DNA of 64,000 nucleotides from Leptolyngbyaceae cyanobacterium (GTDB lineage: Bacteria; Cyanobacteriota; Cyanobacteriia; Cyanobacteriales; Aerosakkonemataceae), in assembly GCA_036703985.1 (NCBI GenBank), contig DATNQN010000119.1:62001-126000 (forward strand), in the 5' to 3' direction. A program made the translations under genes and the position numbers. The notes below the pieces were generated by a model. That model ran no database searches. It saw nothing but the letters and a program-made list of their open reading frames with translations, and was not told where the DNA came from. This document shows, piece after piece, positions 28,183-47,617 of this stretch; position 1 is the stretch's first letter, and each line of letters starts with the position of its first letter.

Positions 28183-28981
28183 ACAAAAATAAGCTGGGGT
28201 GCATTTGAGTAATTTGTGATACCAAATCCGGGTTAGTACCCACGTTATTTTTGGGGGAAAGGGGGTAATAGACCCGAATTTGCTTAAACAAGCCGGAGAT
28301 TTATCTCAAACTTCCCTTCGGGTAAGTGTGGGGATGAAAGCATAATTAGCTAAATACTTCCCTTTATATACGCCTTTGTACTTGTATCGAAAGATATATT
28401 TTATTAAATCTAATTCACGAAACACCATATCCCAAATCGCCTCTTCATGGCGATTAAATCGGGATTTAATATTAAATTGGCCGCAAACGCAAGATTATGA
28501 ATTACGTTTAAGACAAGCCGATCGCCAAGAGCAAAACGCGGTAGTAACAATTTTGTATAAAATTTAACATTTCATATTTAATACTAAAGGTAGATGAATT
28601 AATAAAGAGCGAATTATATGCAAGTTAACAATTAACTTAATTCAAATTGAGTAAAAAAGTTCAAGCAAGCTCATTATTTTATTGTCATCTGCATAAAGGT
28701 TAATTTTAAGTTAGTTTCGGTTTTCACTGGGATGAAATAAGAACGCCAGGTTGTTGCTTCATCTAAGCTTCAAAACTCTCATCAAAAAAAATCGAAAGTT
28801 TAAAGATTCCGTGAAGGTACATACTTCAAATAGCAATCGTTCGTAGTAGTTGGTTATTATTTACGAAGATTTACTTAACCAAGGTTTTGCTACTTACGCA
28901 TATAGGAAAATAGCAGGGTGGCAAACTAATCCAGAACGCAAATTCTTGCATTTAACAAAGAATCCTTTCATTAGTAGAACT
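28183..28981. other. Long AT-rich leader/intergenic region
   Basis: About 800 bp before the AlkP-superfamily gene. It contains only an unconvincing 63-codon frame (28376-28567) and no strong hairpin. It should contain the promoter of the second polysaccharide locus, possibly with a long 5' leader. Confidence 0.45.
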
Positions 28982-30875: not shown

Positions 30876-32372
30876 ATGATCAGCGATTCATTGACTATAT
30901 CTAAACTTTCTTCCCCATCATCGGTAAGGCGAACTTGGCCAATTTACTTGTTCGCGGGGATAGCGATTAATGCAACTATTTGGGGTTTAGCTTTATTTTA
31001 TTTAAAAATGGCATCTCCCAGTTACACCAGTGATTTTGCGATTAGTTTGCCTGCGGCTAGTTCGGCTGCTAATGTAAATTTACCAGGAATCGGACAAGCA
31101 AGTGCTTCTAGCGAATCGCCTTATCAAGTAACTTCTCAAGACCCTAGAGAAAATTATAAGTTTTTGCTTACTAGTAGAGAAGTATTGAACGCAGCAGCAG
31201 AATCTCTGAAGATCGAATCTTCAGAGTTTGGTCAGCCCAGAGTAACGACTATTGGTAATACGACAATTATGAAAGTGGAGCTAGCCGGAGAGACTCCAGA
31301 GCAAGCTCAAAGTAAAACTGTAGCGCTGTTAAATGCTTTGCAAAACAAGCTTAATGAACTTAGGCTCAAGCAAAGTTCACAACAGGATTTAATTTTACAA
31401 CAGTCTTTGAACTCATCCCAAAATAAATTGAAAGAAGCACAAAAAAAACTGTTAGATTATAAAGCTAATTCTAATTTAAATTCTGCCGATCAAGTTAGTA
31501 GTTTAACTACTAATATTGAAGATTTAAGAAAACAGAGAGCGCAAATAATAGGTCAAGAACGCTTAGCTAATGGTCGGTTGCAGGAGCTATCTATAAATTT
31601 AAATTTAAATGCCAAGCAAGCTGGAGATGCTTTTATTCTCCAAACTGACCCGATCGTTCAGAAGTTGCTCCAGGATTACACGGAATCAAATGCAGTATTG
31701 ATCGACCTTAATAACAAGTTTTTGCCCAACCATCCCGCCGTGATCGATCGCGTGAGTAGGCGGGACGCCGCTCAAGCTGCTTTGCTCAGACGGGCCAGTG
31801 CTATAGTAGGGCGATCGGTCAGCATCGCAGAACTTACCCAACTAAACTTGAGCAATACCGAACAGGGAGCTTCTGCAAAGGCGGATCTTTCCCAACAATT
31901 AGTGGTAGCCCAAGCAGAAAGACAAGGATTAGCGGCACAAGCGCGAGCATTAGACCAACAAATCGCTCAGTTGGAATCTAGACTCAAAATATTAACTCAA
32001 AAAGAAGCTACTTTAGTTAATTTAGAGCGAGATGTCCGAACCGCAGAAGCAGTATTCTCCTCTACCCTAGCTCGTTTGGATTTGGGTAAATCGACTGTTT
32101 CCGGTGCTTACCCTCTGATTCAGTTATTTTCAGAACCTAGCTTGCCAGGTAGCTCAACTTCTCCGAAAAAGATTTTTGTTTATGTTGGTGCGGCTTTAGC
32201 CTCCCTCTTTTGCAGCAACGGTTTATTTTTACTTTGGTTGCGGCAACGGCAAAAGCGGAAGCCCAAACAATTGGAACCTACTACTGGTGAGCTTGTCGCT
32301 GCCCTTTCAGTGCCAAAGCCAGAAGCGGCGGACGTAAATAAAAACGGCAAAAAACCGCTCGCTACAAGGTAA
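30876..32372 (+). CDS. Wzz/GumC-like polysaccharide copolymerase without kinase domain
   Basis: A 498-residue membrane protein. The first membrane helix is at about residues 24-46 (IYLFAGIAINATIWGLALFYL). A large periplasmic region follows with long coiled coils (residues about 160-235 and 330-400), then the proline-rich motif SEPSLPGSSTSPKK and a second helix (IFVYVGAALASLFCSNGLFLLWL). The C-terminal tail of about 45 residues is short, basic and Pro-rich, with no Walker motifs. It would set chain length and aid export in Wzy-dependent synthesis. A separate BY-kinase is not present in the window. Confidence 0.9.
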   Translation: MISDSLTISKLSSPSSVRRTWPIYLFAGIAINATIWGLALFYLKMASPSYTSDFAISLPAASSAANVNLPGIGQASASSESPYQVTSQDPRENYKFLLTSREVLNAAAESLKIESSEFGQPRVTTIGNTTIMKVELAGETPEQAQSKTVALLNALQNKLNELRLKQSSQQDLILQQSLNSSQNKLKEAQKKLLDYKANSNLNSADQVSSLTTNIEDLRKQRAQIIGQERLANGRLQELSINLNLNAKQAGDAFILQTDPIVQKLLQDYTESNAVLIDLNNKFLPNHPAVIDRVSRRDAAQAALLRRASAIVGRSVSIAELTQLNLSNTEQGASAKADLSQQLVVAQAERQGLAAQARALDQQIAQLESRLKILTQKEATLVNLERDVRTAEAVFSSTLARLDLGKSTVSGAYPLIQLFSEPSLPGSSTSPKKIFVYVGAALASLFCSNGLFLLWLRQRQKRKPKQLEPTTGELVAALSVPKPEAADVNKNGKKPLATR

Positions 32373-32398
32373 TTACTATTTTGTTCGAGGTACTTATT

Positions 32399-33160
32399 AT
32401 GAATACTCAAAAAAAGTTTTCTAAGGCTAGGTGGTTAGATTTAAAAGAAACTTTAGTAATTAATATAGCGGGATGGATACCATTTTCGATCGGTAGAGCA
32501 TTACGAAAAACCTTTTATCGGGCAATTTTTAGAAAATTCGGTACTTCTGTCCGCATCGAACCAGACGTTGAATTTCAAGTCGCCCATAGAATCCAAATTG
32601 GCAATCGGGTTGTTTGCGATCGCAACGTGCGGATCAGATGCTTTGGTAAAAACAGTCAAATTTATCTGAAAGATGGCGTATTTCTCGATCGCGGCGTGGA
32701 TATCAAAGCTCATATTAGTGCTGAGATTGAAATTGGCGAAAACACTTACATTGGCCCGTATACTTGCTTGTCTGGTGACCATATCAAAATCGGCAAGTAC
32801 TGTTTAATCGCATCTCATTCAGCTATTTATGCCAATAATCATAACTTTGCCGATCCCACTCGTTATATCCAAGAACAAGGAAATAATTACAAGGGAATTG
32901 CGATCGAAGATGATTGTTGGTTAGGCAGTGGGGTGAGAGTTTTAGATGGAGTCACTATTGGTAAAGGTAGCGTAATCGGAGCCGGAGCAGTTGTGACCAA
33001 AGATATTCCGCCCTATTCAATAGCTGTTGGCGTGCCTGCTAAAGTAATCGGTCACCGAGATAGTATTAAGCACTCATCCGAAGAGCCAAATTTTTTGCCA
33101 ATGCAGGAGTCTTTAAAAGAGGCTGTTTCACTAGGGATGGTTAAACCTAATTTATCTTGA
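32399..33160 (+). CDS. Hexapeptide-repeat (LbetaH) acyltransferase
   Basis: A 253-residue left-handed beta-helix acyltransferase. Repeats run from about 60 to 215 (VEFQVAHRIQIGNRVVCDRN, IEIGENTYIGPYTCLSGDHI, VTIGKGSVIGAGAVVTKDIP), with the catalytic-type His in SHSAIYANNHNF and a closing VGVPAKVIGHRD. It resembles sugar O-acetyltransferases such as WbbJ and NodL. I chose the ATG at 32399 (GAGG nine bases upstream) over the TTG at 32381. It is tightly linked to the Wzz-like gene and likely acetylates a sugar of the repeat unit in the cytoplasm. Confidence 0.9.
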   Translation: MNTQKKFSKARWLDLKETLVINIAGWIPFSIGRALRKTFYRAIFRKFGTSVRIEPDVEFQVAHRIQIGNRVVCDRNVRIRCFGKNSQIYLKDGVFLDRGVDIKAHISAEIEIGENTYIGPYTCLSGDHIKIGKYCLIASHSAIYANNHNFADPTRYIQEQGNNYKGIAIEDDCWLGSGVRVLDGVTIGKGSVIGAGAVVTKDIPPYSIAVGVPAKVIGHRDSIKHSSEEPNFLPMQESLKEAVSLGMVKPNLS

Positions 33161-33215: not shown

Positions 33216-34514
33216 ATGATCGCGACAATTACTCATAAAAAACCACGTATTTGCATTGCTTTGCCAGGGATAAACTACTTATCCTATTCTCCCTACGTAT
33301 TAAGTACTCTACCAGTAGTTCAATATTTAGAAAAAAATTTTGATGTAACGGTTGTATATCGAAAAATCTTGGAAAATAAGGCACTTGATTATAAGTACTT
33401 AACTATTCTTAATGAAGATCAGATGTCAGAGAAAGAAAAAAGAAATAATCAAGGCTATTTCTCTCCTCCTAACTACATTAGTTTGCTCAAATATCAAGAT
33501 AAATTAGATAAATTTGCTCGGAAGCACGCCAAAGATTTTGATTTAATTATGGAAAAAGAATGGCCCTATTTGGGAGCTTTTTCTCACGCTTTTAGCAAGT
33601 ATAACGTGCCAACAGTATTACTGGCTGAAGCTGTATATAAATTTGAAGAAAGGTCTCAACCTTTTTGGCAAGGTAATCCGCTGAAGAAAGCGATGAGTAT
33701 CGGTATCGGTCAATGGCGGTTACATCTTAGAAAGCAATGGGGTAACGAAGCAGGCAGCATTATCGTAGAAACAGAGCAATTAAAAGAATTTTTGCTTGAC
33801 GGCGGTTATGCTAATCCCAAAACACCCATTTATTCAATTCCTTACGGTGTTAATTCAGACCGTTTTTATCCTCGCGATCGCGATTTTTGTCGCGAGCAAT
33901 TAGGTATTAGTAAAGATCGGTTCGTCTTAACTTACGTTGGTTCGTTAAATCGTTTTATCCAAGAACCAAGCCCGATTATTGAAGCATTAGGATTGGAAAA
34001 GCCTCAAAATGTAGTTCTGCATATAGTTGGAGATGGCGGCAAGCGCAAGGAATTGGAAGATATTGCGAGAAAATTTAACGCCCCTGCGATCTTTCATGGC
34101 AGGGTAGAACAGCAAGAAGCTGCTCTCTACATTGGAGCATCTAACATATGTATTGCTCCTTACAACAAAGATTTATTCCCCGAACGGAAGTTTACTACCG
34201 CTAGTCTCAAGGTTTGCGAATATTTGGGTTGCGGTCGTCCCGTTCTGACTATTCCCTGCGAAAGAATGCAGCATTTACTTGATGGTGGACAATATGGATT
34301 TTTGGTGGAAAATACGGTTGATGACTACAGAAAATTTTTCCGTAACCTGCCGAATTTAGAAATATTTATGAAAAAGGAGGCTGCACTATTAAGAGATATC
34401 GATAACTCAATGATTAGGAAGAAAAAAATCGTTTTGTCTTGGGAAGATATCGCTGGAATGCACCAGCAAGTAATTAACGAAACTCTCTCAGAAAAATTTA
34501 GTTTAGTTCGTTAA
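33216..34514 (+). CDS. Glycosyltransferase family 4 protein
   Basis: A 432-residue GT-B enzyme. The N-terminal domain ends near 200 with IIVETEQLKEFLLDGGY and IPYGVNSDRFYPRDR. The donor-binding C-terminal domain starts LTYVGSLNRFIQEPSPIIEAL and includes LHIVGDGGKRKELEDIA and FHGRVEQQEAALYIGASNICIAPY. The retaining E-x7-E region appears as ERKFTTASLKVCEYLGCGRPVL. No membrane segment is seen. It should add one sugar to the lipid-linked repeat unit. Confidence 0.9.
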   Translation: MIATITHKKPRICIALPGINYLSYSPYVLSTLPVVQYLEKNFDVTVVYRKILENKALDYKYLTILNEDQMSEKEKRNNQGYFSPPNYISLLKYQDKLDKFARKHAKDFDLIMEKEWPYLGAFSHAFSKYNVPTVLLAEAVYKFEERSQPFWQGNPLKKAMSIGIGQWRLHLRKQWGNEAGSIIVETEQLKEFLLDGGYANPKTPIYSIPYGVNSDRFYPRDRDFCREQLGISKDRFVLTYVGSLNRFIQEPSPIIEALGLEKPQNVVLHIVGDGGKRKELEDIARKFNAPAIFHGRVEQQEAALYIGASNICIAPYNKDLFPERKFTTASLKVCEYLGCGRPVLTIPCERMQHLLDGGQYGFLVENTVDDYRKFFRNLPNLEIFMKKEAALLRDIDNSMIRKKKIVLSWEDIAGMHQQVINETLSEKFSLVR

Positions 34515-34568
34515 GATAGGTATTTAAATTTCGTTCAGACCGACTTGCAATTATTAACTAAAAAATTG

Positions 34569-35900
34569 ATGAATTTACAAAAAATCTTAGGACAAAAAAT
34601 TCGCAATTACCTGGGCACGCCCCAAAATTTTCCAGAAAAAGTAGTGTGGTATTACATGACGGGGATATACGTGCTGTATTTGCTAGGCGCACAGCATATA
34701 TTAGCTTTTTTGGTGGCTTGGTTATTGTTTTTTTATTTATGCAAAAAACTGTGGGAGCAAACAGAAGAAACTCCTGAAGAAGAAAGAATTACTATTCCAT
34801 TAGGAGTATGGGTGTGGATTATTTCCATGTTATTTATGGAAGTAGCTTTAATTGGCGCTCATCTCGATTTTAATATGGATTTAGCGCGTGTTATCAGGTC
34901 AACTATCAACTTTTTCATCAGAACTTGGGCGCTGTTTGCTTTATTTCCTTTAGTTGGTTGCTTGAAAATACGGCCACAATTAATTTATAGAGCAGGCTGT
35001 ATTCTTTGTTTACAAAGTTTAATTTTATTTCCACTTTGCCAAGTAGCAATTGCCCTGCACTTACCTTCAGAATTATATATTTCTCCGCTTCAGAAAGTAG
35101 GAGGTGTTGGAGCAGAATATTATCAAGTATTCCTTTACGGTGTTGACGGTGAAACTCTTAAACCGCGCCTTTATTTATTTACACCTTGGGCACCTGCTTT
35201 AGGTCTAGTAGGCAACATATATTTTTTTCTTACCTCGCAAGACCCTAACGTGAAATGGCGATGGATCGGCAGGATCGGTGCTGTTTTAATGGTGATCGGA
35301 GCAGATTCTCGATTGGGTACTTTATGTCTGGTAAGTCTGCCGTTCGTAATAATATTTTTAGTCAATTTTATTCGCCCTAGCGTCCAAATTGGTGCGGGAA
35401 TAGTTAGTTTATTATCTGGTATTTTCGGTCTCCAGATAGTTACTTGGCTTAAGGATTTCAAAGCTCAATTCGACGGCCAACGAGCAGGTTCTTCGCGAGT
35501 GAGAGAAATTTTGGGTGAAATAGCTTTGTACCGATGGAAAACTGATGCACCGATTTGGGGCCACGGTCTAATCGAACCGAAAGGCCCTCCAGTGACGACT
35601 CGCAAGCCGATCGGCTCTCACCATACTTGGTTTGGCCTTTTATTCGCACACGGAATCATTGGCTTTATTGCATTTGCAGTTCCTTTGATTTGGAGTTTTG
35701 TAGAGCTTTTTATTAAGGGCCAAAGAAGCAAGACCGCCCAAGCCGGTTTAAGTGTAATTATGGTCTTATTTCTCTTTTCTTTTGCGGAAAACTTGGAAGC
35801 TTTGATCTATATCTATTGGCCGGCTTTGGTATTACTAGGTATTGCACTTAAAGAGAAACTTCCCTCTTCATATAAACTTTACGAACCGCTAAAAACTTAG
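34569..35900 (+). CDS. Wzy/O-antigen ligase-like polysaccharide polymerase
   Basis: A 443-residue membrane protein with about 10-11 helices. A large loop leads into GADSRLGTLCLVSLPFVIIFL and RAGSSRVREILGEIALYRW. The C-terminal part includes WGHGLIEPKGPP and GSHHTWFGLLFAHGIIGFIAF. The arginine-bearing R-x-x-x-L/GS-H-H-T-W pattern is that of the WaaL/Wzy superfamily. It polymerises or ligates undecaprenyl-linked repeats on the periplasmic face. Start is uncertain: a TTG at 34545 would add eight residues; I use the ATG. Confidence 0.87.
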   Translation: MNLQKILGQKIRNYLGTPQNFPEKVVWYYMTGIYVLYLLGAQHILAFLVAWLLFFYLCKKLWEQTEETPEEERITIPLGVWVWIISMLFMEVALIGAHLDFNMDLARVIRSTINFFIRTWALFALFPLVGCLKIRPQLIYRAGCILCLQSLILFPLCQVAIALHLPSELYISPLQKVGGVGAEYYQVFLYGVDGETLKPRLYLFTPWAPALGLVGNIYFFLTSQDPNVKWRWIGRIGAVLMVIGADSRLGTLCLVSLPFVIIFLVNFIRPSVQIGAGIVSLLSGIFGLQIVTWLKDFKAQFDGQRAGSSRVREILGEIALYRWKTDAPIWGHGLIEPKGPPVTTRKPIGSHHTWFGLLFAHGIIGFIAFAVPLIWSFVELFIKGQRSKTAQAGLSVIMVLFLFSFAENLEALIYIYWPALVLLGIALKEKLPSSYKLYEPLKT

Positions 35901-36018: not shown

Positions 36019-36999
36019 ATGCCAGTTGTATCCGTGATTATTCCTGCCTTCAATGCTGAAAAAACCATCTTAGAAACGATTCAATCTTTACAGAAACAAA
36101 CTTTTCTAGATTTTGAGATTATTGTTATTAACGATGGTTCCACGGACAGAACTGTAGAAGTACTAAATGAAATTGAAGATGGGCGACTGAAAGTTTTTTC
36201 CTATGAAAATGGAGGGCTACCTGTTGCTCGCAATCGGGGGATCGATCGCGCTACCGGAGAATACATCACCTTCCTCGATGCCGACGATTTGTGGACACCA
36301 GATAAAATAGAACTACAGTTAGCAGCTTTGCAACAAAATCCAGAAGCAGGAGTAGCCTACAGTTGGACTGCTTTCATCAATGAAAAAAGCGAGTTTTTAT
36401 ACGCCTGGGAGCCTTTATACTACCAAGGAAATATATATCCTCAATTATTATTGAGAAATTTTATTTCTAGTGGTTCAAATATCATGGTTCGCAGCAAATA
36501 TATCCAAGCAGCAGGCAAGTTCGATCCTACACTTAAATCGGCTGAAGATTGGGATTATTACATTCGGTTAGCGGCTTTATGCCATTTCGTTTTGGTTCCC
36601 AAATACCAAATTTTGTACCGTCGATCTTCCCAGTCAATGACATCAAAAGTAGATGTCATGGAAAAATACATTCTCACCGTCAGTGAAAGAGCATTTCAGC
36701 AAGCACCAGCAGAGTTACAATTTTTAAAAAATCAAAGCACAGCCTACACTTACCGATTCTTATCTCAACTTTGCATAGCTCATACCCTTGATGATAAAGG
36801 AGCTAAACTTGCCAAGAAAAAATTGCAAAAATCTATTTGGTCGTATCCTAAAATTTTACTCGATCGCCAGACACAAAGGCTCTTTTTAAAATTGGCATTA
36901 ATGCAGCTAATACCATACAAAACTTCTAGCAAAATTACCAGTTTTCTGGGAAGAATATTTCCACAAACTACTACTAAAACATTAACGCTAGAAATTTAA
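36019..36999 (+). CDS. Glycosyltransferase family 2 protein
   Basis: A 326-residue GT-A enzyme: VSVIIPAFNAEKTILETIQ, IVINDGSTDRT, ARNRGIDRATGEYITFLDADD (DxD) and SAEDWDYYIRLA as the conserved acidic site. AAGAAGGGAG upstream is a strong ribosome-binding site for the ATG. It sits between the polymerase-like and flippase-like genes. It is shorter and more divergent than the two tandem GT2 paralogues downstream. Confidence 0.93.
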   Translation: MPVVSVIIPAFNAEKTILETIQSLQKQTFLDFEIIVINDGSTDRTVEVLNEIEDGRLKVFSYENGGLPVARNRGIDRATGEYITFLDADDLWTPDKIELQLAALQQNPEAGVAYSWTAFINEKSEFLYAWEPLYYQGNIYPQLLLRNFISSGSNIMVRSKYIQAAGKFDPTLKSAEDWDYYIRLAALCHFVLVPKYQILYRRSSQSMTSKVDVMEKYILTVSERAFQQAPAELQFLKNQSTAYTYRFLSQLCIAHTLDDKGAKLAKKKLQKSIWSYPKILLDRQTQRLFLKLALMQLIPYKTSSKITSFLGRIFPQTTTKTLTLEI

Positions 37000-37071: not shown

Positions 37072-38379
37072 ATGAACTTAGCAGCAAGTTTAGCTAAACC
37101 AATCGATCGGATCAAGCAAAAGCTAAATGACGGTTTTATCCGCAATTTGGGCTGGTTGGGGGCTGCGGAGATAATTAACCGAGTCTTCCGTTTAGTAACA
37201 ACTGTCGTATTAGCCCGTTTTTTAACAGCTTATGATTATGGATTAGCAGCTTTGGTTCTAACCACTTATGAATTTACACAAGCATTCGCTAGAATCGGGA
37301 TTGGCGGTAAGGTAATCCAAGCTGATGAAGAGAGCCTGGAATCTATTTGTAATGGTGCATACTGGCTAAACTGGGTAGTTTGTTTGGGGTTGTTTATTAT
37401 TCAATGTATTGCGGCTTTTCCCGTAGCTTGGTTTTATAATGACAACCAACTTATTATGCCCATTTGCCTTTTATCAACTATTTATTTAGTTACTCCTATA
37501 GGTCGAATTCAAACAGCTTTAATTCAAAGAGAAAACCGCTTAAAAATTACCGCTGTAAGTAGCAGTATTCAACTAGCCGTTGGCAATATTTTAACCGCTG
37601 TATTTGCTGCTCTAGGTATGGGAATGTGGGCAATTATTCTACCCAGAATATTAGTAGCTCCTTTAGATGCGTTAATAAGTTTGGCGTATCATAGTTGGCG
37701 ACCTAAAAAAGGGTTTACCACAGAACGTTGGAGAGAAATTTTTACTTTTGGCATCAGCATATTAGGTACTTCGCTGCTAGGAACTCTCAGGAATAATTTG
37801 GATTATTTGATAGTTGGTCGGTTTGTAGGAGTGAAAGCACTGGGAGTATATTATTTTGCTTTCAATGCGGGATTGGGGATTAGTTTTAGTATTATCCAAT
37901 CTATTACCGTAGCATTGTATCCTCACTTGTGTGCTGCGCGATCGGACTTAGCAAAATTTCAGCAGTGCTATTTGAAAAGCCTCAAAACGATCGCAACAAT
38001 TATTATTCCCTTTGTGTTATTGCAGTCAAGCTTGGCTCCCTTGTACGTACCGATAATTTTTGGCAGACAAGAGTGGGTGGCTGCCATTCCCATTCTGATT
38101 TTGATTTGTTTATCAGCGATACCTCGTCCTTTTGGGATCGCCTCTTCTTATCTATTATTGGCGATGGGCAAACCTAACTTAGCTTTGAAATGGGATATCT
38201 GGTTTACGGTTATTTTTGCTGGGGGACTGGTTTTGGGCGCTCAATGGCAACCCGGTAATCTAGAAACGTTAGGAGTTGCGATCGCTGTTTTAGTAACCCA
38301 CTTGATTTTCATTCCTGTATTTACCTTGTGGAGTACTCGATACGTATTTGGTGCCAATAAATCACTGAGAGCAGTTTAA
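37072..38379 (+). CDS. Wzx-like flippase (MOP/PST polysaccharide transporter)
   Basis: A 435-residue membrane protein with about 11-12 helices, in the lipopolysaccharide biosynthesis/PST family. The N-terminal pattern GFIRNLGWLGAAEIINRVFRL and the segments RFLTAYDYGLAALVLT and FGISILGTSLLGTLRNNLDYLIVGRFVG are typical of WzxC-like flippases. It moves the undecaprenyl-linked repeat unit to the periplasmic side for the Wzy-like polymerase. Its position within the cluster supports this. Confidence 0.93.
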   Translation: MNLAASLAKPIDRIKQKLNDGFIRNLGWLGAAEIINRVFRLVTTVVLARFLTAYDYGLAALVLTTYEFTQAFARIGIGGKVIQADEESLESICNGAYWLNWVVCLGLFIIQCIAAFPVAWFYNDNQLIMPICLLSTIYLVTPIGRIQTALIQRENRLKITAVSSSIQLAVGNILTAVFAALGMGMWAIILPRILVAPLDALISLAYHSWRPKKGFTTERWREIFTFGISILGTSLLGTLRNNLDYLIVGRFVGVKALGVYYFAFNAGLGISFSIIQSITVALYPHLCAARSDLAKFQQCYLKSLKTIATIIIPFVLLQSSLAPLYVPIIFGRQEWVAAIPILILICLSAIPRPFGIASSYLLLAMGKPNLALKWDIWFTVIFAGGLVLGAQWQPGNLETLGVAIAVLVTHLIFIPVFTLWSTRYVFGANKSLRAV

Positions 38380-38413: not shown

Positions 38414-39436
38414 ATGAAAAAAGTTTCTGTAATTATTCCGGTTTATAAAGTTGAAAAGTATATATCCCATACAGTGCGATCGGTTTTAGAGCAAACCTAC
38501 ACAAATTTTGAATTGCTGATCGTTGATGATGGTTCTCCCGATCGTAGTATAGAAATCTGCCAGCAATTCAGCGACGCCAGAATCAAACTCATTCGTCAAT
38601 CAAATCGAGGAGTTTCTAGCGCTCGCAATACTGGTATTCGCCATGCAACAGGAGAATATTTAGCATTTCTAGATGGGGACGACTTATGGACGCCGGAAAA
38701 ACTAGAAAAGCACGTTACTCATTTGGATAACTCCCCCAATTTGGGAATTAGCTTTAGCCGTTCTGCTTTCATTGATGAAGCTGGCAATCCGTTAAATCTT
38801 TACCAAATGCCGAAGCTCAAAGAAATTACTCCGGATTTGATATTCTGTCGAAATCCTGTTGGTAATGGTTCAACTCCTGTAATTCGGCGAGAGGTGTTTA
38901 AAGCGATCGCATTTCAAGATGATACTAACGATCCAGAACAGCTATGTTACTTTGACGAAAAATTACGCCATTTCGAGGATGTAGAATGCTGGCTGCGAAT
39001 TGCCCTTCAAACCGACTGGCAACTAGAAGGAATTGCCGAACCTTTAACCTTATACCGGGTAAATTTAACAGGAGCTTCCACTAATGTTTACAAACAAGTA
39101 GAAGATTTAGAAAAAGTAATTGAAAAAACTCGCTCCTATGCTCCCGAATTAATCGCGCGTTGTGCAAATCCAGCCAGAGCTTATGAATTGCGGTTTTTAG
39201 CTCGGCGGATGGTAAGTGTAAGAAATGGTAAAGAAGCCGTCAAATTTGCTCACCGTGCTTTAGCTACTCACTGGCAGATTGTCTTAGCAGAACCTCGCCG
39301 GACATTTTTGACTTTGGCTGCTGCTTATTCTTTATGGCTTTTACCCCAATCTTTTTATAAACAAATTGAAGAAATTGCTTTAAAAATTACAGGTGCTAAT
39401 CAAAAGCGCCGCATTCTACAAGAACAGCCAAGATAA
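38414..39436 (+). CDS. Glycosyltransferase family 2 protein (tandem paralogue A)
   Basis: A 340-residue GT-A enzyme: KKVSVIIPVYKVEKYISHTV, LLIVDDGSPDRS, ARNTGIRHATGEYLAFLDGD and FEDVECWLRIALQTDW. The C-terminal 80 residues have a hydrophobic, Trp-containing stretch (RTFLTLAAAYSLWLLPQSFY) that may dip into the membrane. The next gene is a full-length paralogue; the two are well over half identical by eye across the first 170 residues. A GGGGTGATGAAATG context provides the ribosome-binding site. Confidence 0.93.
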   Translation: MKKVSVIIPVYKVEKYISHTVRSVLEQTYTNFELLIVDDGSPDRSIEICQQFSDARIKLIRQSNRGVSSARNTGIRHATGEYLAFLDGDDLWTPEKLEKHVTHLDNSPNLGISFSRSAFIDEAGNPLNLYQMPKLKEITPDLIFCRNPVGNGSTPVIRREVFKAIAFQDDTNDPEQLCYFDEKLRHFEDVECWLRIALQTDWQLEGIAEPLTLYRVNLTGASTNVYKQVEDLEKVIEKTRSYAPELIARCANPARAYELRFLARRMVSVRNGKEAVKFAHRALATHWQIVLAEPRRTFLTLAAAYSLWLLPQSFYKQIEEIALKITGANQKRRILQEQPR

Positions 39437-39456
39437 TTTATGAGGTTGGTGTGATG

Positions 39457-40479
39457 ATGAAAAAAGTTTCTGTAATTATTCCCACTTATAACGTAGAAAA
39501 ATATATCGCTGCTGCTGTAAATTCGGTTTTAGCACAAACCTACCAAAATTTTGAACTGCTAATTGTTGACGACGAATCACCCGATCGCAGCGTCGAAATT
39601 TGCCAACAATTCACCGACCCCAGAATCAAAATTATCAGTCAGAAAAATCGCGGTTTAGCAGGTGCTAGAAATACTGGTATTCGCCATGCTAGCGGAGAAT
39701 ATTTAGCTTTCTTGGATGGTGACGATCTCTGGTTACCAGAAATGCTAGAAAAAAATATCGCTCACCTAGAAAATTCCCCAGATGTAGGAGTTAGCTTTAA
39801 TCGCTCTGCTTTTGTTAATGAACGAGGCGAAGATTTAGGTACTTATACAATGCCACAGCTTAAAGATATTGACGTGCCTTGTTTGTTACGCGGCAGTCCG
39901 ATCGGTAATGGTTCGGCGGTGGTAATTCGCCGAGAAGTTTTAGAAGAAATTCGATTTGAAGATAACCTTTACGGTACTGTAGAAGAATTTTATTTTGATG
40001 ACCGATTTCGTCGATCGGAAGATATTGAATGTTGGCTAAGAATTGCGCTGCAAACCGACTGGAAAATTGAAGGAATACCGGATGTTTTAACTCAGTATCG
40101 CGTCAATTCTGGCGGCCTTTCTGCTAACTTTTTCAAACAATTGGAATCTTGGGAACAGGTGTTTGAAAAGACCCGCTCTTATGCAGGCGAACGAGTTGCT
40201 AGATGGGAAAATATGGCTATGGCATATCAGCTGCGCTATTTAGCAAGAAGTGCGGTTCGTATGCAGGCTGGTGATGTGGCTTTCCAACTCATTAATCGAT
40301 CTTTATCTATTTATTGGCGTATTTTGTTTGAGGAACCGCGTCGGACGATTCTTACCTGGATAGCAGCTTGTCTGTTATGGCTTTTGCCTCGCGCTCTCTA
40401 TTCTCAAATAGATGTTTTTGCATCTAAGATTAGAGGTAATACTCAAAGGCAGCAAATATTACAAGAGCAGTCTAGTTAA
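39457..40479 (+). CDS. Glycosyltransferase family 2 protein (tandem paralogue B)
   Basis: A 340-residue close paralogue of the preceding gene: KKVSVIIPTYNVEKYIAAAV, LLIVDDESPDRSVEICQQF, ARNTGIRHASGEYLAFLDGD, SEDIECWLRIALQTDW. In GDDLW both carry the same GDD acceptor-site variant. Three in-frame starts (GTG 39451, ATG 39454, ATG 39457) are possible; the last matches the paralogue. It begins about 20 bp after its partner. The pair probably arose by local duplication and may now add different sugars. Confidence 0.93.
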   Translation: MKKVSVIIPTYNVEKYIAAAVNSVLAQTYQNFELLIVDDESPDRSVEICQQFTDPRIKIISQKNRGLAGARNTGIRHASGEYLAFLDGDDLWLPEMLEKNIAHLENSPDVGVSFNRSAFVNERGEDLGTYTMPQLKDIDVPCLLRGSPIGNGSAVVIRREVLEEIRFEDNLYGTVEEFYFDDRFRRSEDIECWLRIALQTDWKIEGIPDVLTQYRVNSGGLSANFFKQLESWEQVFEKTRSYAGERVARWENMAMAYQLRYLARSAVRMQAGDVAFQLINRSLSIYWRILFEEPRRTILTWIAACLLWLLPRALYSQIDVFASKIRGNTQRQQILQEQSS

Positions 40480-40748: not shown

Positions 40749-42929
40749 ATGGGTCGATTCAATAAGCACCTAAAATATTTATTGGCAGGCTCGATTACTA
40801 TTACGATAACTGCTATATGGGCGATTATTTTAACCCCTTCAAATCCCCGCTTCAAATTTAATTTATTGCAGGCGCAGGTTACTCCTTCTTCATCTCAACA
40901 AATTCCTCAATCTAAAGGTTGGCAAAATGTATCTTTAGGAGGAGGTGGTTACGTAACTGGCATCTATCTCCATCCTTTAGAAAAAGACCTCGTTTATATC
41001 AAAACCGATGTGGGTGGTTTTTATCGTTGGAATCCTCAAAATCAAACCTGGATACCATTAACCGATCGATTTCTGCTTTCCCAACGTCATTATTACGGCG
41101 GAGAATCACTGGCGATCGATCCGAACAATCCAAATGTTGTTTATATTGCCGCAGGTATTTACCTTTGGGATAAGCCGGGAACGATTTTTAAATCAACGAA
41201 TCGAGGTAAAACCTGGACTAAGTTGAACATTGATTTACCGATGGGAGGTAATGAAACAAAAAGATGGATGGGAGAAAGATTAGCTGTTAATCCATTTAAT
41301 TCAAATATTATTTTTTTTGGCTCGCGTCGGGATGGATTGTGGAAATCGTTAGATGCTGGGATAACTTGGCGTAAAATCGATTCTTTTCCCGGAAAACCAG
41401 CAAAAGATATCGGCATTTCCGGGGTTTTGTTCGATCGCCAAAGATCCGGTTTAGTTTATGCGATCGCATACGGAGATGGAATATATAAATCTACGGACAC
41501 AGGCGTCACTTGGCAGAAAATCGAAGCAAGTCCGAAATGGCCCAGGCGAATGGCAACTGGTAACAACCAGAGCTTATACGTAACCAGCGCCAAGGAAGAA
41601 GGAGTTACTAAGTATGCCAACGGCGTTTGGCGCAATATCACGCCGAACAACTCCCAAGCAGTTTTTAACGCCTTAAGCGTCAACCCAGCTAATCCCAACC
41701 AACTAATCGTGGCATTGGGAGAAACCCCATCTACGAAAATTTACCGATCTGCGGATGGGGGTGCTACCTGGACGGAAATGGAACGCTCTATGAACAATAG
41801 CGTTCCTTGGTGGAAAGGTATCATGCTCAGACAACCTTGGATTTCCGCCATTGAGTTTGACCCGAAAGTGGAGAGCAGAGTTTGGCTAACTGACTGGTAC
41901 GGCATATGGCGCACGGAAAATGCCAAAGCAAATCCAGTAGTGTGGACTAACTATCAGAAAGGACATGAAGAACTGGTTATTTTTTCCCTCGTTTCACCTC
42001 CCAAAGGCTCGCTGTTATTAAGTGGCGTAGCAGATGTGGATGGTTTTAATCATGGCGATCGATTAGATGCTTACCCATCCCAAAAATTTAGCGGCAGGGG
42101 GCTAGAGTTTCAAGATACTTATAGTATTGATTACAACCAACGAGATCCCTTACAACTAGTGCGGGTGAGCGGAAATCGCTGGAACAATACCTATTCTGGA
42201 GCTACTTCACGAGACGGCGGCTTATCTTGGCAACAATTTAGCTCGTTTCCTACTAATAAAATGCCCATCCGAGTAGCGATGTCGGCAACAGATTCAAAGG
42301 TGTTCGTCGTTACTCTTAACAACGACGTACCCATTCGCACTAACGATGGCGGTGTTACATGGCAAACCGTCACGGGATTACCCAATGGCGCTCGCGGGCC
42401 TTGGCACTGGTCTCAATCTCTGGCGGCAGATGCAGTAGATGGCAATACGTTTTATTACTACTGGAACGATACGTTTTATCGCAGTACCGATCGGGGTGCT
42501 TCTTTTACTCCTATATATAAGCCACTGGTGGGTAAAAATGGGTGGCACGCCGTTAAAACCGTACCGGGAGTAAAAGGTGAAGTTTGGGTTGGTTTAGATG
42601 AAAATGGACTATATCGTTCCACAGATGCGGGCGAGACTTTTTCTAAAATTAATACAGTAGAAAAAGCTTATTTGTTTGCTTTTGGCAAACCCAAACCAGG
42701 TAGTACAATTCCGGCTCTTTACTTGTATGGAAAAATTACTGGTATGGGAGATGGTATTTTTCAGTCTTTAGATCGAGGAATCACATGGAAAAAAATTAGC
42801 GATCGCACCAATCCCATCGGCAATAATCCGCAAGTTATGGAAGCTAGTAAACAGTACTTTGGGATGGTTTTTATCGGCACTAATGGCCGGGGAATATTTT
42901 ATTACGCTGCGGGTCAAGAAAATCCATAA
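40749..42929 (+). CDS. GH74-like secreted or anchored glycoside hydrolase (xyloglucanase-type beta-propellers)
   Basis: A 726-residue protein. A hydrophobic N-terminal segment (residues 9-29, YLLAGSITITITAIWAIIL) acts as signal peptide or anchor. The GH74 hallmark follows: WQNVSLGGGGYVTGIYLHPL and LVYIKTDVGGFYRWNPQN, with Asp87 in KTDVGG matching the catalytic base position. BNR/Asp-box repeats recur throughout (STNRGKTWTKL, SLDAGITWRKI, STDTGVTWQKI, SADGGATWTEM, STDAGETFSKI), giving two seven-bladed propellers. The block SGVADVDGFNHGDRLDAYPS corresponds to the region carrying the second catalytic acid in GH74. GH74 enzymes are endo-beta-glucanases; here, inside an exopolysaccharide locus, it may trim or release the cell's own polymer. 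Confidence 0.85.
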   Translation: MGRFNKHLKYLLAGSITITITAIWAIILTPSNPRFKFNLLQAQVTPSSSQQIPQSKGWQNVSLGGGGYVTGIYLHPLEKDLVYIKTDVGGFYRWNPQNQTWIPLTDRFLLSQRHYYGGESLAIDPNNPNVVYIAAGIYLWDKPGTIFKSTNRGKTWTKLNIDLPMGGNETKRWMGERLAVNPFNSNIIFFGSRRDGLWKSLDAGITWRKIDSFPGKPAKDIGISGVLFDRQRSGLVYAIAYGDGIYKSTDTGVTWQKIEASPKWPRRMATGNNQSLYVTSAKEEGVTKYANGVWRNITPNNSQAVFNALSVNPANPNQLIVALGETPSTKIYRSADGGATWTEMERSMNNSVPWWKGIMLRQPWISAIEFDPKVESRVWLTDWYGIWRTENAKANPVVWTNYQKGHEELVIFSLVSPPKGSLLLSGVADVDGFNHGDRLDAYPSQKFSGRGLEFQDTYSIDYNQRDPLQLVRVSGNRWNNTYSGATSRDGGLSWQQFSSFPTNKMPIRVAMSATDSKVFVVTLNNDVPIRTNDGGVTWQTVTGLPNGARGPWHWSQSLAADAVDGNTFYYYWNDTFYRSTDRGASFTPIYKPLVGKNGWHAVKTVPGVKGEVWVGLDENGLYRSTDAGETFSKINTVEKAYLFAFGKPKPGSTIPALYLYGKITGMGDGIFQSLDRGITWKKISDRTNPIGNNPQVMEASKQYFGMVFIGTNGRGIFYYAAGQENP

Positions 42930-43239: not shown

Positions 43240-44256
43240 TTATTGCTTAAAATTATGCCTGGTAGCAACTTTTATTTTGCCTTCTTTCTCTAAAAACTCT
43301 TGGATTTTCGCATGATAAATTTCTTGATATTCAGGGAATTTATATCGATCGAGTCTAATGCCAAAGGTAGGATTTTTTCCTTGCAGAGTATCAGCTACTT
43401 TCTGTTGAATTTTAGGATAAAAATGACTGCCATCATAGCTATTTTTAGCTTCTGCCGTCACGGTGGAAGGTACTGAAAAATCATACATAACGTTAAATAT
43501 TTTAGATACTTGATAGAAAGCTTGTAAGTCGCAATCTGTCAAATTACGAAAATAGGTTTCATTAACGACGTTCCAGGCTGATATAGGAGGTACGTACCCG
43601 ACAAACTCAGCTTTAGGAAATACATCTCGCAGTTTTTGATATTCTTTAACTTTAGAGCGATCGCAAATCCCAGGCTTTTGGCGATCGTAAAATTCCGGTT
43701 TAAAAGTAGGAGGATTTTCAACCAGTTCGCTCTCAAATTGTTCATTATAATACCTTGGATCGGGCGACATCCCCAGAAGCGTTCTGGCTGAAAATAAGAA
43801 TACATCTAATGAGAAGTAAGCTTGATATGCAGGTTGAGGAGCTATTTTACCAATCCCAGCCGAAGAAGCAGGGGTTTTCTCAAAATTGAAGGCATCGACT
43901 CCAACGTAAACTTTTTTAGGATTAAGCCCTTTTGACTTGGCGTATTTAGCATATTCGACAAACTCTTCAATTCTTCCTGCACTGAAGGAATAATTAAAAC
44001 AACGTTGCTTTTTAAATGAAGAAGCTTTTATTAAAGTTACTCTGGAACTCCCTAAAATTAAGCAATCATAGTTCTGGATTTCGCTATTCAGCAAAAGGTT
44101 AGTTTTTGAAACGCGCTCGTTAAATGAAAAATTTTTACCTGTCAGTTTATTTCCTTTACTATACCAAAGCGGATCGATAGTAAAGTTAATTATTCCTACT
44201 AAAAATAAAATTATAGCCGATAAGCTGAAGTAAGTCCTTAAGTAAAATTTTAACAT
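43240..44256 (-). CDS. SGNH-hydrolase-like membrane-anchored protein (O-acetylation partner)
   Basis: A 338-residue protein with one N-terminal membrane helix (YFSLSAIILFLVGIINFTI) and a periplasmic domain. It has SGNH-type catalytic signatures: the nucleophile block DCLILGSSRVTLI and the C-terminal D-x-x-H block SYDGSHFYPKIQQ. It lies 73 bp downstream of an MBOAT gene. That pairing, as in AlgI with AlgJ/AlgX or DltB with DltD, indicates transfer of an acyl group to an exported polysaccharide. Specific acetyl donor and glycan are inferred. Confidence 0.78.
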   Translation of the reverse strand: MLKFYLRTYFSLSAIILFLVGIINFTIDPLWYSKGNKLTGKNFSFNERVSKTNLLLNSEIQNYDCLILGSSRVTLIKASSFKKQRCFNYSFSAGRIEEFVEYAKYAKSKGLNPKKVYVGVDAFNFEKTPASSAGIGKIAPQPAYQAYFSLDVFLFSARTLLGMSPDPRYYNEQFESELVENPPTFKPEFYDRQKPGICDRSKVKEYQKLRDVFPKAEFVGYVPPISAWNVVNETYFRNLTDCDLQAFYQVSKIFNVMYDFSVPSTVTAEAKNSYDGSHFYPKIQQKVADTLQGKNPTFGIRLDRYKFPEYQEIYHAKIQEFLEKEGKIKVATRHNFKQ

Positions 44257-44329
44257 CCCTATTTACTCCCAAATTTGGCAAAAAAGCTGACGTTAGTTTT
44301 TGGCAAGCCAAAAGGTTTTCGTTGAACGC

Positions 44330-45913
44330 TCAGAACTGAAAATATAAAAACTCGCTGACTCGTGTAAGGCTGAGCAGAGAAATACCAGTTATAAGAGCGC
44401 TAGCTACAGCCCATATTTGATTTGGTTGCCATTGTAAACTGCGCCAAATGCGATCGTACCAATTGGCAGAAACGTTTATTCCCTGTTGCTTTATCTTAAT
44501 AGGATTGTATTGGCCCATCCATTGTTGAGTATTAGGAGTAAACCAAGCAACTAACAATAAAAAAGTTATTCCCCCCATTACATAGCCTACTGGTAACTCC
44601 GTCGCATTCGTAAGTCCGTTAAACTGAATAATTCCAAAGTTTTCCAAAAAGCCTAGTTTTGTCAACAAAACTCTGGGCAGAGATATTCCATTAACACCCA
44701 TCATTGCACTCAGAATAGCAGTTGCAGCATCAATAGTTTTTGCTCTGAAGAAAACCCATGATATTACCACGGCCAAAAATGTTACAAACCAGCTTATTCC
44801 TTGACTAAACCAGTGGCTCTTATTGAGATCGTGTCCCAACCAGCGACGGAACGATCGCCATTGATGATTAATTACTAAATAAATTCCATGTAATCCACCC
44901 CATACCACGAAATTCCAACCAGCACCATGCCAAAGACCGCCTAATAGCATCGTAATCATTAAGTTGAGATAGCGTCGCAACTTTCCTTGGCGATTTCCCC
45001 CTAGTGGAATGTATAAATAATCTCGCAAAAAATTAGACAGCGTAATGTGCCACCGTCGCCAAAAATCGATTATATTAGTTGCTTTGTAAGGCGAATCAAA
45101 GTTGAGTGGTAGCTTAATACCAAACAGATAAGCAGAACCGATCGCCATATCAGAATAGCCTGAAAAATCAAAGTAAAGCTGCAATGTATATGCAAGAACT
45201 CCAGCCCAAGCCTCAAAAAATGTGAGAGGTAAACCTCGATTTGCCGCATCAAAAACTGGAACGGCGTAGACAGCTATTCGATCGGCAAATACTACTTTTT
45301 TGAACAGTCCTATAAAGAAAATTGTTAGTCCTATGATTAAAAATTTGCGTTTAAACTGATAAATTGATTTGTCAGCAAATTGGGGCATCAAATCTTTATG
45401 ATGAACGATCGGCCCCGCTATTAAGTGGGGAAAAAAGGTAACGAAAAGGCAGTAATTTAAAAAGCTATCTTCTTTTGTTTCGCCTCGGTAAGCATCCACC
45501 AGATAAGTAATTTGGACAAAGGTAAAAAATGATATAGCTAGTGGCAAAGCAATCGTCTCTAAATTAAGATTACTCCCAGTTATTTGGTTGAAGTTATCAA
45601 TAAAAAAGTTGGCATACTTGAAATAAGCAATTAAAGCTAGGTTAACAATAATGCCAAAAATTAATAAAGTTTTTTTACTGGTTATTAAAAAAGTGATTTT
45701 TCTTAGAGCATAACCAATAAAGTAATTAAATAAAATTGAAAAAGTTAGCAAACTCAAATTAGCTGGATTCCACCGCCCGTAGAAAAAGAAAGATGCAGCT
45801 ACAAGCCACAGGATTGCCCATTTTTGATGATGTTTTTGTCTGCCAATTAAAAAGAAAATTACTACAGAAATCGGCAGAAACAAAAAAATAAATTCAAATG
45901 AGTTAAATAACAT
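44330..45913 (-). CDS. MBOAT family O-acyltransferase (AlgI-like)
   Basis: A 527-residue membrane enzyme. It begins MLFNSFEFIFLFLPI, the common start of AlgI-like MBOAT proteins; I therefore use the ATG at 45913 rather than the frame from 45964. Conserved blocks are YFDFSGYSDMAIGSAYLFGI, NFDSPYKATNIIDFWRRWHI, LRDYLYIPLGGN and LLGGLWHGAGWNFVVWGGLH, the last with the catalytic histidine. Such proteins pass acetyl groups from cytoplasmic donors across the membrane. With the adjacent SGNH-like protein it should O-acetylate the exopolysaccharide. Confidence 0.94.
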   Translation of the reverse strand: MLFNSFEFIFLFLPISVVIFFLIGRQKHHQKWAILWLVAASFFFYGRWNPANLSLLTFSILFNYFIGYALRKITFLITSKKTLLIFGIIVNLALIAYFKYANFFIDNFNQITGSNLNLETIALPLAISFFTFVQITYLVDAYRGETKEDSFLNYCLFVTFFPHLIAGPIVHHKDLMPQFADKSIYQFKRKFLIIGLTIFFIGLFKKVVFADRIAVYAVPVFDAANRGLPLTFFEAWAGVLAYTLQLYFDFSGYSDMAIGSAYLFGIKLPLNFDSPYKATNIIDFWRRWHITLSNFLRDYLYIPLGGNRQGKLRRYLNLMITMLLGGLWHGAGWNFVVWGGLHGIYLVINHQWRSFRRWLGHDLNKSHWFSQGISWFVTFLAVVISWVFFRAKTIDAATAILSAMMGVNGISLPRVLLTKLGFLENFGIIQFNGLTNATELPVGYVMGGITFLLLVAWFTPNTQQWMGQYNPIKIKQQGINVSANWYDRIWRSLQWQPNQIWAVASALITGISLLSLTRVSEFLYFQF

Positions 45914-46241
45914 AATCGTTGGCTTTATACCTGCTATAGCTGTGATAAAATAATCAAATGCCAATGGTTAGAGACCCCTAACGGGTAACTAACCTAGTGG
46001 ATATATAGCCAAAATTTTCGCTTAGTGCTGATGGTAACTTGCAGAGAGAGTCTGGCTATTTTTTCTAAGGCATGAAAAGAGAGCGTGCATTAAATTGCAC
46101 ATTAGCTTAAAAACGGTTAAGAGATGGAAAACGATAGTAAATTGGTGTTTTCTTACCTCATCCTTGTCTAAATTTACTTAGCCGCTTTTTGCTAGAAAAT
46201 GGCATTACAAAATATTCCCTTTCTTGTAAGGTTAACCTTTT
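45914..46241. other. Intergenic region upstream of MBOAT gene
   Basis: About 330 bp with no gene seen. Only a weak GTGCA..TGCAC inverted repeat near 46087 is visible. It should hold the MBOAT promoter. Confidence 0.4.
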
Positions 46242-47048
46242 TTAAGCCGCTTTACCCGTATTCAATTCTGCGTCAAACTCCTCTACTATTTCTTCCCTCA
46301 AGAAAGGTATTTTGTAAGAATTAAGTTTTTGTTTTATCACTAACCACAAAAAAGGAAGGTCTTCTATCAAATATCTTTTCCAAAGTCTTCTTGGTTCGGA
46401 AGAAAGTCTATATAACCATTCAATGCCTGCTTTGCTCATCCATTGAGGCGCTCTTGGTTTATGACCCGCTTCAAAGTCGATCGTAGCACCAATTGCTAGG
46501 AAAGTCTTGATATTTGGCAAACTATCTTTATACTTTACGATCCACTTTTCTTGTTTGGGAGCACCTACTCCTACTGCTAACACGGTAGCGCCGGATTCTT
46601 TAATAATTTCGATGATTTGCTGGCATTCTTTCTCGTTATTTTCAAAACCAAAAGATGGTGAATATGCCCCCACTATGATTTGTCTGCCTACTTTTTTATT
46701 AATTTCCTCCTGCGCTTTTTTAGCTATTCCTTCGGCGGCACCCAACAAAAATATCTTGACGTTTTCATCATCTTTATAGTAGTTGTAGAAAGCCGGAAAT
46801 AAATCGGAGCCAGAAATCTTTTCTTGGATTGGCGTACCTAAGAACTTAGAAGCATACATCACTATTTGACTATCACATACCTTATAAGTAGCGTTGTTAT
46901 AAATTTTATAAAATTCTCGGTCTTTTTGTAATTTAATCAAGTGGTCTACGTTGGGTGTAAATACAATTCCACCTATTTCCAGTTTTTCTAACAACTCTAC
47001 TTTTGATACGTTGTCAATTGGTATGTTTAGAACGTTAACTTTTTTCAT
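46242..47048 (-). CDS. WecG/TagA/CpsF family glycosyltransferase (GT26)
   Basis: A 268-residue GT26 enzyme: GIVFTPNVDHLIKLQKD (conserved T/N-x-x-x-D/H), YKVCDSQIVMYASKFLG, KISGSDLFPAF, FLLGAAEGIAKKAQEEI and GVGAPKQEKWIVKY, with the C-terminal GAGATID-like and RAPQWMSKAGIEWLYRL blocks. Related enzymes add the second sugar (for example ManNAc) to an undecaprenyl-PP-linked primer at the membrane. I chose the ATG at 47048, with GAGG nine bases upstream, over the frame from 47111. It is probably part of the Wzy-dependent pathway. Confidence 0.94.
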   Translation of the reverse strand: MKKVNVLNIPIDNVSKVELLEKLEIGGIVFTPNVDHLIKLQKDREFYKIYNNATYKVCDSQIVMYASKFLGTPIQEKISGSDLFPAFYNYYKDDENVKIFLLGAAEGIAKKAQEEINKKVGRQIIVGAYSPSFGFENNEKECQQIIEIIKESGATVLAVGVGAPKQEKWIVKYKDSLPNIKTFLAIGATIDFEAGHKPRAPQWMSKAGIEWLYRLSSEPRRLWKRYLIEDLPFLWLVIKQKLNSYKIPFLREEIVEEFDAELNTGKAA

Positions 47049-47617
47049 TGATGCAACCTCACAGGTAAATTTTATGTTTATATGAAGACTATGTTTTGTA
47101 GTTAGCAGCAAGTCTAATTTTGCAGTGATATATTCTTGGGGTTTTTCAGGTTGAAAAGGTTGCTTTTAATAAAATTAAAGCTTAGTAGTGAAATCTAATA
47201 AGCAATCAACCCAAGTCAATCGTTTTACATCTACGTGTAAATACTTGCCTTACATAGAGAGCATAACAAAGCTTTTAAAGGTTAATTTAAAGTTATTATG
47301 AAGTTTAAGTATTTTATTATGAAAAAAATATAAAGATAATAATAAGATTCAGTGGTTTTTTGAAAATTAAGATTAATCTATCTAAAGTCTAATTTATTTA
47401 CAGCAAGCAGTCTAGCAATTTCAACCATAAAATCTATCTTTTGACTGTTGCTTATGATATAACCGTAATTATACTGAGAAACTTCTGTTTTTACTTGCTT
47501 TGTCTTCAGCCGATCGCTAGTTTTCCCAAATAAAGGAAAACTTCCTGTTTGGCAAACCATTAGTTATTTAGTTATTAATAAATTTATGCACAACAACGAC
47601 ACCCTAAGGCAGTGGGG
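47049..47617. other. Divergent control region (GT26 / CHASE2-GGDEF)
   Basis: Nearly 570 bp, very AT-rich. It contains an inverted repeat and phased direct repeats (47221-47320) that look like response-regulator sites. A 60-codon minus-strand frame at 47378-47560 has no recognisable protein character. Promoters for both flanking genes must lie here. Confidence 0.5.
47224..47313. promoter_or_regulatory. Candidate operator: inverted repeat plus 11-bp-phased GTTA repeats
   Basis: TTTACA-TCTACG-TGTAAA (47224-47241) is a perfect 6-bp inverted repeat. At 47281, 47292 and 47303, GTTAATT, GTTATTA and GTTTAAG recur at exact 11-bp spacing. That spacing is typical of OmpR/PhoB-family regulator sites. 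The regulator is unknown. Confidence 0.4.

Follow-up and report, generated by a model that had tools for sequence, protein, structure and literature searches.

What does an enzyme of family GH74 do next to the genes with which a cyanobacterium makes its own exopolysaccharide (EPS)? GH74 is an inverting family known for enzymes that digest the xyloglucan of plants. The question is raised by a stretch of 64,000 nucleotides, called the window in the following, for which a preliminary description had proposed a GH74-like enzyme in an EPS locus of a photoautotroph. A photoautotrophic host is borne out by BtpA, PUCC and DUF3120 genes in the window and by the seven relatives found by name, all of which are cyanobacteria (Argonema, Trichocoleus, Iningainema, Plectonema, Rivularia, Richelia and an uncultured cyanobacterium).

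The GH74 protein and its gene cluster

Membership of the GH74 family is supported by full-length homology to solved xyloglucanases, as solved GH74 enzymes match residues 55-718 of the protein end to end in phmmer searches (6p2m, E 1.4e-107; 2cn2, E 6.7e-101), and 17 distinct PDB sequences match at E <= 0.001. The aligned identity is 37.9% to 6p2m and likewise to 2cn2. The gene is a single unbroken frame of 726 codons and the sole GH74 copy of the host genome (Table 1). Pfam reports Sortilin/BNR repeats only and the best NCBIfam model does not reach its cut-off (107.9 vs 175 bits), so that automatic annotation may miss the GH74 name. A structure model built from only seven sequences is weak (pLDDT 68, pTM 0.53), and the best 25 Foldseek rows obtained with this weak model are all GH74, with a TM score of about 0.5 and an rmsd of about 10. 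A Ycf48-like photosystem factor is rejected, as the GH74 match is full-length and no Ycf48 model is listed for the protein, and so is a viral enzyme, with no relative confirmed among 32 candidate viral-contig stretches; one unannotated faecal phage record stands at 31%. The N-terminus is hydrophobic, as it is in the relatives, suggesting that the protein is exported.

Upstream of the GH74 gene lies a Wzx/Wzy-type cluster with all genes on the + strand, in agreement with the EPS locus proposed earlier. The placement of GH74 inside this locus holds for cluster membership but not for position, since the gene stands at the 3' end as the last gene on the + strand, starting 269 bp past the last glycosyltransferase gene, and the next three genes (43240-47111) lie on the - strand. 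Unlike xyloglucan utilisation loci, the window's cluster has no recognisable gene for sugar uptake or side-chain hydrolysis. The host genome encodes two PF13440 flippases, one of them in this cluster, and seven PF02397 priming transferases, all on other contigs. Hormogonium-polysaccharide (Hps) models reached their cut-off with none of the ten EPS-locus proteins scanned, and a scan for promoter-like sites (25 vs 23.0 expected) and terminator-like sites (9 vs 8.8) remained at chance level.

Beside the cluster, a CHASE2-PAS-GGDEF diguanylate cyclase is encoded at 47612-49792 (+), and homologues of it come after the cluster in loci L002, L003, L055, L056 and L057; because of this recurrence c-di-GMP may control the cluster. 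Further downstream, 57630-59465 encodes a protein that combines a kinase-like N-terminal part with seven WD40 repeats.

Table 1. Features of the GH74 gene and of the EPS cluster; positions refer to the window
Feature	Position	Strand	Basis or remark
Type I phosphodiesterase-like protein	28850..30652	+	PF01663
Chain-length protein, weakly Wzz-like	30876..32372	+	PF02706 and GNVR below cut-off; weak NCBIfam matches
Hexapeptide acetyltransferase	32381..33160	+	PF00132, WbbJ/WcaF-like
GT4-type glycosyltransferase	33216..34514	+	PF13692
Wzy-like polymerase	34545..35900	+	PF04932
GT2 glycosyltransferase	36019..36999	+	PF10111, PF00535
Wzx-like flippase	37072..38379	+	PF13440
GT2 glycosyltransferase	38414..39436	+	PF00535
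GT2 glycosyltransferase, last before GH74	39451..40479	+	PF00535
GH74-family protein, 726 aa	40749..42929	+	ORF, solved GH74 homologues, single genome copy
Residues 4-27, hydrophobic N-terminal helix, putative signal peptide or membrane anchor	40758..40829	+	Modelled helix, low confidence there
Asp87, catalytic base	41007..41009	+	Aligned with D of 2cn2 / A of 2cn3
Trp140, probable -4 platform	41166..41168	+	Aligned with ClGH74A W126
Trp387, probable +1 platform	41907..41909	+	+1 assigned from the Xanthomonas enzyme (excerpted source)
Asp429, catalytic acid	42033..42035	+	Aligned with D of 1sqj / N of 2ebs
Residues 546-557, extra D-A loop with Trp552 (42402-42404)	42384..42419	+	Longer than in 8/8 references
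Trp599, probable -5 platform	42543..42545	+	Aligned with ClGH74A W599
338-aa protein without family match	43240..44256	-	Pfam/NCBIfam search
MBOAT O-acyltransferase, possible polymer acylation	44330..45964	-	PF03062
GT26 (WecG/TagA/CpsF) glycosyltransferase	46242..47111	-	PF03808, TIGR00696 over cut-off

Catalytic residues and predicted mode of action

Is the protein equipped to act as an enzyme? The deposited sequences of 2cn2 and 2cn3 differ by a D to A exchange in RADIGGAYRW, and those of 1sqj and 2ebs by a D to N exchange in GIGDISG, the title of 2ebs naming D465N. In the alignment the first position corresponds to Asp87, which had been suggested as catalytic base, and the second to Asp429, which gives the second acidic block of the preliminary description its residue. 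Substitution of both catalytic aspartates was looked for in the sequence alignment and found nowhere: all 62 cyanobacterial rows (47 of clade I including the window protein, 15 of clade II) have Asp at both positions, as do the eight references (six plasmid GH74s, 6p2m and 2cn2), the Bradyrhizobium row and the Persicobacter row. A catalytically dead propeller is rejected on the basis of the 62 rows. It is part of the best explanation that the window protein would be a catalytically competent GH74-type enzyme, an activity predicted from its sequence.

Residue numbers of ClGH74A, taken from excerpts of the source (PMC8245568), fit the 6p2m chain at a constant offset of 30, and the candidate platforms of the substrate cleft could be assigned accordingly. 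The position of Trp140 holds Trp in 41/47 rows of clade I, 0/15 of clade II and 5/8 references, that of Trp387 in 47/47, 10/15 and 5/8, and that of Trp599 in 41/47, 13/15 and 3/8, respectively. A Trp-Trp pair of the +3/+5 subsites, which an excerpt of PMC10317168 describes as needed for GH74 processivity, is present in five of the eight references (including 6p2m and 2cn2) and missing from three; the alignment contains no such pair in the window protein or any cyanobacterial row. The GH74 enzyme of Xanthomonas lacks these aromatics and is characterized as endo-dissociative and non-processive in PMC8245568. As the motif is missing in the same way, non-processive action is predicted, and the window GH74 is probably a non-processive endo-enzyme. 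At the place where we take the exo loop of 1sqj to be located, the window protein has an insertion of 16 residues vs 53 in the exo-acting 1sqj; exo-action is rejected for want of a long insertion there.

Furthermore, the protein carries an extra loop with a tryptophan, Trp552. The interval between residues 544 and 558 comprises 15 residues in all 47 rows of clade I and 16-21 in all 15 of clade II, against seven in six references and 11 in the other two. Trp552 is found in 61 of the 62 cyanobacterial rows (46/47 and 15/15), as well as in the Bradyrhizobium and Persicobacter GH74, and in none of the eight references. A loop of this type is missing from the alignments of seven solved enzymes (6p2m, 2cn2, 1sqj, 6p2o, 6p2n, 5jwz, 6mgj), the last four of which were aligned against a Streptomyces or Croceicoccus GH74 itself devoid of the loop. 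In the propeller, D-A and B-C loops share one face, and since Trp552 belongs to a D-A loop and Asp87 to a B-C loop, the strand order places the Trp552 loop probably on the catalytic face; for placing it by distance the structure model is too weak. In Persicobacter the GH74 gene with this loop is neighboured by GH9 and amylo-alpha-1,6-glucosidase genes and not by EPS genes, so that the loop is no strict marker of EPS linkage.

Recurrence of the GH74-EPS linkage

How general is the arrangement? With the host's own genome included in each count, GH74 was detected in eight of ten genomes of the host's family at E 1e-3 (seven full length), in 49 of 291 genomes of its order at E 1e-60 and in 12 of 386 genomes of a phylum sample. 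The GH74 of Argonema antarcticum (L002) is 72.5% identical to the window protein. Neighbourhoods were compared for 62 GH74 loci, made up of 55 further copies with up to 20 kb around each and seven named loci. Counted by place, 67 GH74 places lie outside the window's copy at E <= 1e-60, of which 58 neighbourhoods were examined, together with four named loci; the nine left out are those in genomes G133, G186, G211, G221 (two), G242, G246 and G275 and a broken copy in G047. The latter, a fragment with two stops (G047:C35:115850-116509), lies about 7 kb from an intact copy of the same genome. Locus L008, which has a broken frame, is counted among the 62 and left out of the tree, alignment, residue and N-terminus sets. 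Gene starts in the neighbourhood counts are those of the longest ORF.

At least two glycosyltransferase genes occur within about 20 kb at 57/62 GH74 loci vs 1/40 random stretches, supporting a recurrent tie of GH74 to EPS synthesis; the GH74 loci are related and not independent, and as the models behind the gene labels were seeded with window and GH74-locus proteins and the 40 controls stem from eight one-contig genomes, this ratio is indicative. A Wzy gene is near GH74 at 47/62 loci (0/40 random), a Wzx gene at 49/62 (2/40), both together at 44/62 (0/40) and a GT26 gene at 23/62 (1/40), the latter at only one of the 15 clade II copies. The linkage is found in both clades, with at least two glycosyltransferase genes at 42/46 clade I and 14/15 clade II loci (L008 not counted). 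According to Pfam, clade I is exemplified by L069/L070 with Wzy, Wzx, Wzc-like, GT2 and GT4 genes and clade II by L096, L101 and L107 with Wzy, GT2, GT4 and GT61 genes. At five loci the number of glycosyltransferase genes is below two (L062, L073, L076, L090, L106); among them L073 and L076 contain no labelled EPS gene, and in L090 GH74 is situated at a contig end.

In 38 of 61 loci an upstream gene on the same strand lies within 150 bp of GH74. The GH74 gene overlaps an upstream GT2 gene by 4 bp in L003, L055 and L056, and a GH5-like gene by 4 bp in L086, L087, L088, L094 and L109, so that two hydrolases stand at one EPS operon in five loci, all of one genus. The GH5 identity is given by Pfam for L086 (L086:7766-8872) and by similarity for the other four, and the nearest solved relatives of this partner are beta-mannanases, followed by endoglucanases. 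Other neighbours include a 1438-aa protein with weak UvrD/Schlafen-helicase matches adjoining the clade II GH74 of L101 (L101:12529-16845), ORFs of about the same size near GH74 in L098, L099, L103 and L104, and a TnpB/IS605-like gene (PF07282, PF12323) directly downstream of GH74 in L067 (L067:11174-12871).

Phylogeny and double copies

In a quick tree search with 72 rows, few references and no bootstrap, a branch with support 100 separates all eight references from the cyanobacterial GH74; the supports of the cyanobacterial clades are 99 (clade I) and 86 (clade II). In the same quick tree the Persicobacter GH74 joins clade I on a very long branch, and the Bradyrhizobium GH74 is not placed firmly.

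Do enzyme and cluster travel as a matched pair? Distances of GH74 correlate with those of Wzy and Wzx (Mantel 0.45 and 0.43, with none of 2000 permutations as high), for loci that are not independent. Moreover, 14 genomes have two GH74 copies, which are 37-90% identical to each other. Wzy could be compared in eight such pairs, giving 12-16% identity in five and 42-90% in three, and in four of the five former pairs both GH74s belong to clade I. With enzymes of the same clade beside polymerases that barely resemble each other, a single GH74 clade serves assembly genes of very different kinds. This suggests that the polymers have a cutting site in common; alternatively, the GH74 gene may have moved from one cluster to another. 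In genome G149, two GH74 copies of different clades (37% identical) lie beside rather similar Wzy proteins (49%), which shows that a given enzyme does not strictly go with a given cluster.

What does the enzyme cut?

The same pairing of GH74 with EPS genes in many cyanobacteria suggests that the enzyme trims the polymer of its own producer. Trimming of a self-polymer with a beta-glucan-like backbone had been put forward in the preliminary description, and the findings are consistent with it; the family-wide pattern, the missing Trp-Trp motif, the Trp552 loop and the GH5 neighbour of some relatives go beyond that description. From the sequence evidence we hold it to be rather likely that GH74 serves EPS synthesis, being exported and cutting beta-1,4-linked, glucan-like stretches in the polymer of its own cluster. 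The protein would pass the inner membrane and, in the periplasm or at the surface, cut beta-1,4-linked stretches, probably of glucose with side chains, in the product of its Wzx/Wzy cluster, which could set chain length, release polymer or clear stalled chains. AlgL clears periplasmic alginate (excerpt of PMC8829089) and PslG shapes the Psl biofilm (excerpt of PMC9075953), and by analogy with both the cut would most likely fall during or after export.

The proposed backbone draws on GH74 chemistry, the conserved aromatic platforms, GT26, the GH5 neighbour of one genus and a 1-4-linked xylogalactoglucan backbone reported for Nostoc (excerpt of PMC5635763; linkage data are also reported for N. 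sphaeroides in an excerpt of PMC6017307), none of which is decisive. GT26, the family of GumM, also includes TagA, which transfers ManNAc (both in excerpts of PMC6493773), and the GH5 partner looks mannanase-like, for which reasons these two do not settle the backbone; that GT26, cited for the beta-1,4 linkage, is near so few copies speaks against our explanation. One rival view is that the enzyme cuts the polymer of its own cluster but that this has a backbone other than a glucan-like one, such as a mannan or mixed heteroglycan, GH74 specificity having changed with the Trp552 loop as part of the change. The near-universal presence of this loop in cyanobacteria and its absence from the references, the missing -4 Trp of clade II, the mannanase-like partner and the ManNAc transfer by TagA would all fit; Trp387 in every clade I row, both aspartates in all 62 and the high specificity for xyloglucan ascribed to GH74 in PMC8245568 argue against it, and we regard such a change as unlikely.

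Alternatively, the enzyme might scavenge, digesting xyloglucan or beta-glucan that comes from plants, algae or neighbouring organisms, with an incidental location in EPS clusters. Plasmid GH74 genes of Burkholderia, Croceibacterium, Croceicoccus and Novosphingobium do have xylose, xylosidase or TonB-receptor genes as neighbours (the Streptomyces and Asticcacaulis copies show no clear pattern), the host genome encodes one GH31 protein, and an excerpt of PMC4937211 states that cyanobacteria can reuse extracellular carbon. The same source names a putative GH74 endoglucanase of heterotrophs that live in a cyanobacterial biofilm. The EPS genes at 57 of 62 copies are hard to reconcile with scavenging, as are the lack of recognised uptake or side-chain hydrolase genes in the window's cluster and the fact that the host's GH31 and two GH5 genes are located on contigs other than the window's; we consider scavenging quite improbable. 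On the other hand, these GH31 and GH5 proteins count against our own explanation in that the host may use glucan by other routes. That the protein is a non-catalytic propeller, helping the EPS export machinery to bind or assemble, would be in line with the occurrence of BNR/Sortilin repeats in non-enzymes such as sortilin, which appears at lower Foldseek ranks, and with both catalytic aspartates kept throughout two clades it appears most improbable.

Returning to a GH74 that cuts the polymer of its own cluster, a wider proposal can be made, tentatively and with doubt prevailing: cyanobacteria and at least one Bradyrhizobium would hold a biosynthetic GH74 branch with the Trp552 loop that travels with EPS clusters, and many sheath and slime polymers of cyanobacteria that otherwise differ would share a cutting site in the form of a xyloglucan-like branched beta-1,4-glucan. 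Such a common stretch is suggested because one enzyme clade serves clusters with barely alike polymerases and flippases. If true, presence of GH74 would foretell backbone chemistry from sequence. Cyanobacterial exopolysaccharide structures are hard to predict from genes, and a linked hydrolase of a well-studied family yields a backbone prediction, a candidate tool enzyme for polymer dissection and a gene whose loss should alter polymer size or release; with such a role the GH74 family would reach from plant-wall digestion to the building of the producer's own matrix.

Comparison with known systems

With the solved GH74 endo-xyloglucanases (ClGH74A 6p2m, Xgh74A 2cn2, PoGH74 6mgj/6mgl, XccXeg74 7kn8) the window protein has full-length homology, both aspartates, Trp387, Trp140 and Trp599 in common. 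It differs from them in its place outside the reference branch of the quick tree and in its extra Trp552 loop, and from 6p2m and 2cn2 in lacking the Trp-Trp motif, which is reported missing in Xanthomonas too. In contrast to GH74 genes in catabolic loci, the cyanobacterial genes have EPS neighbours. Another parallel is the GH74 of the Bradyrhizobium barranii plasmid pBb323S2a, known from one strain in two assemblies, which is 40-41% identical, has both aspartates and Trp552 and is adjoined by sugar-transferase and glycosyltransferase genes; it differs by asnB and type I secretion genes and by its orientation opposite to its neighbours.

Searches of open-access literature listed no report of GH74 paired with cyanobacterial EPS synthesis. 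To our knowledge, none of AlgL, PslG, PelA, BcsZ and PgaB is a GH74 enzyme. Like the window's GH74, these are polysaccharide-degrading enzymes encoded together with polymer-making genes, AlgL, PelA, BcsZ and PgaB in synthase-dependent systems, whereas genes for Wzx and Wzy mark the window cluster. That EPS operons can encode hydrolases is already known, and the pairing of GH74 with cyanobacterial EPS clusters would, as far as the literature searched goes, be the new part.
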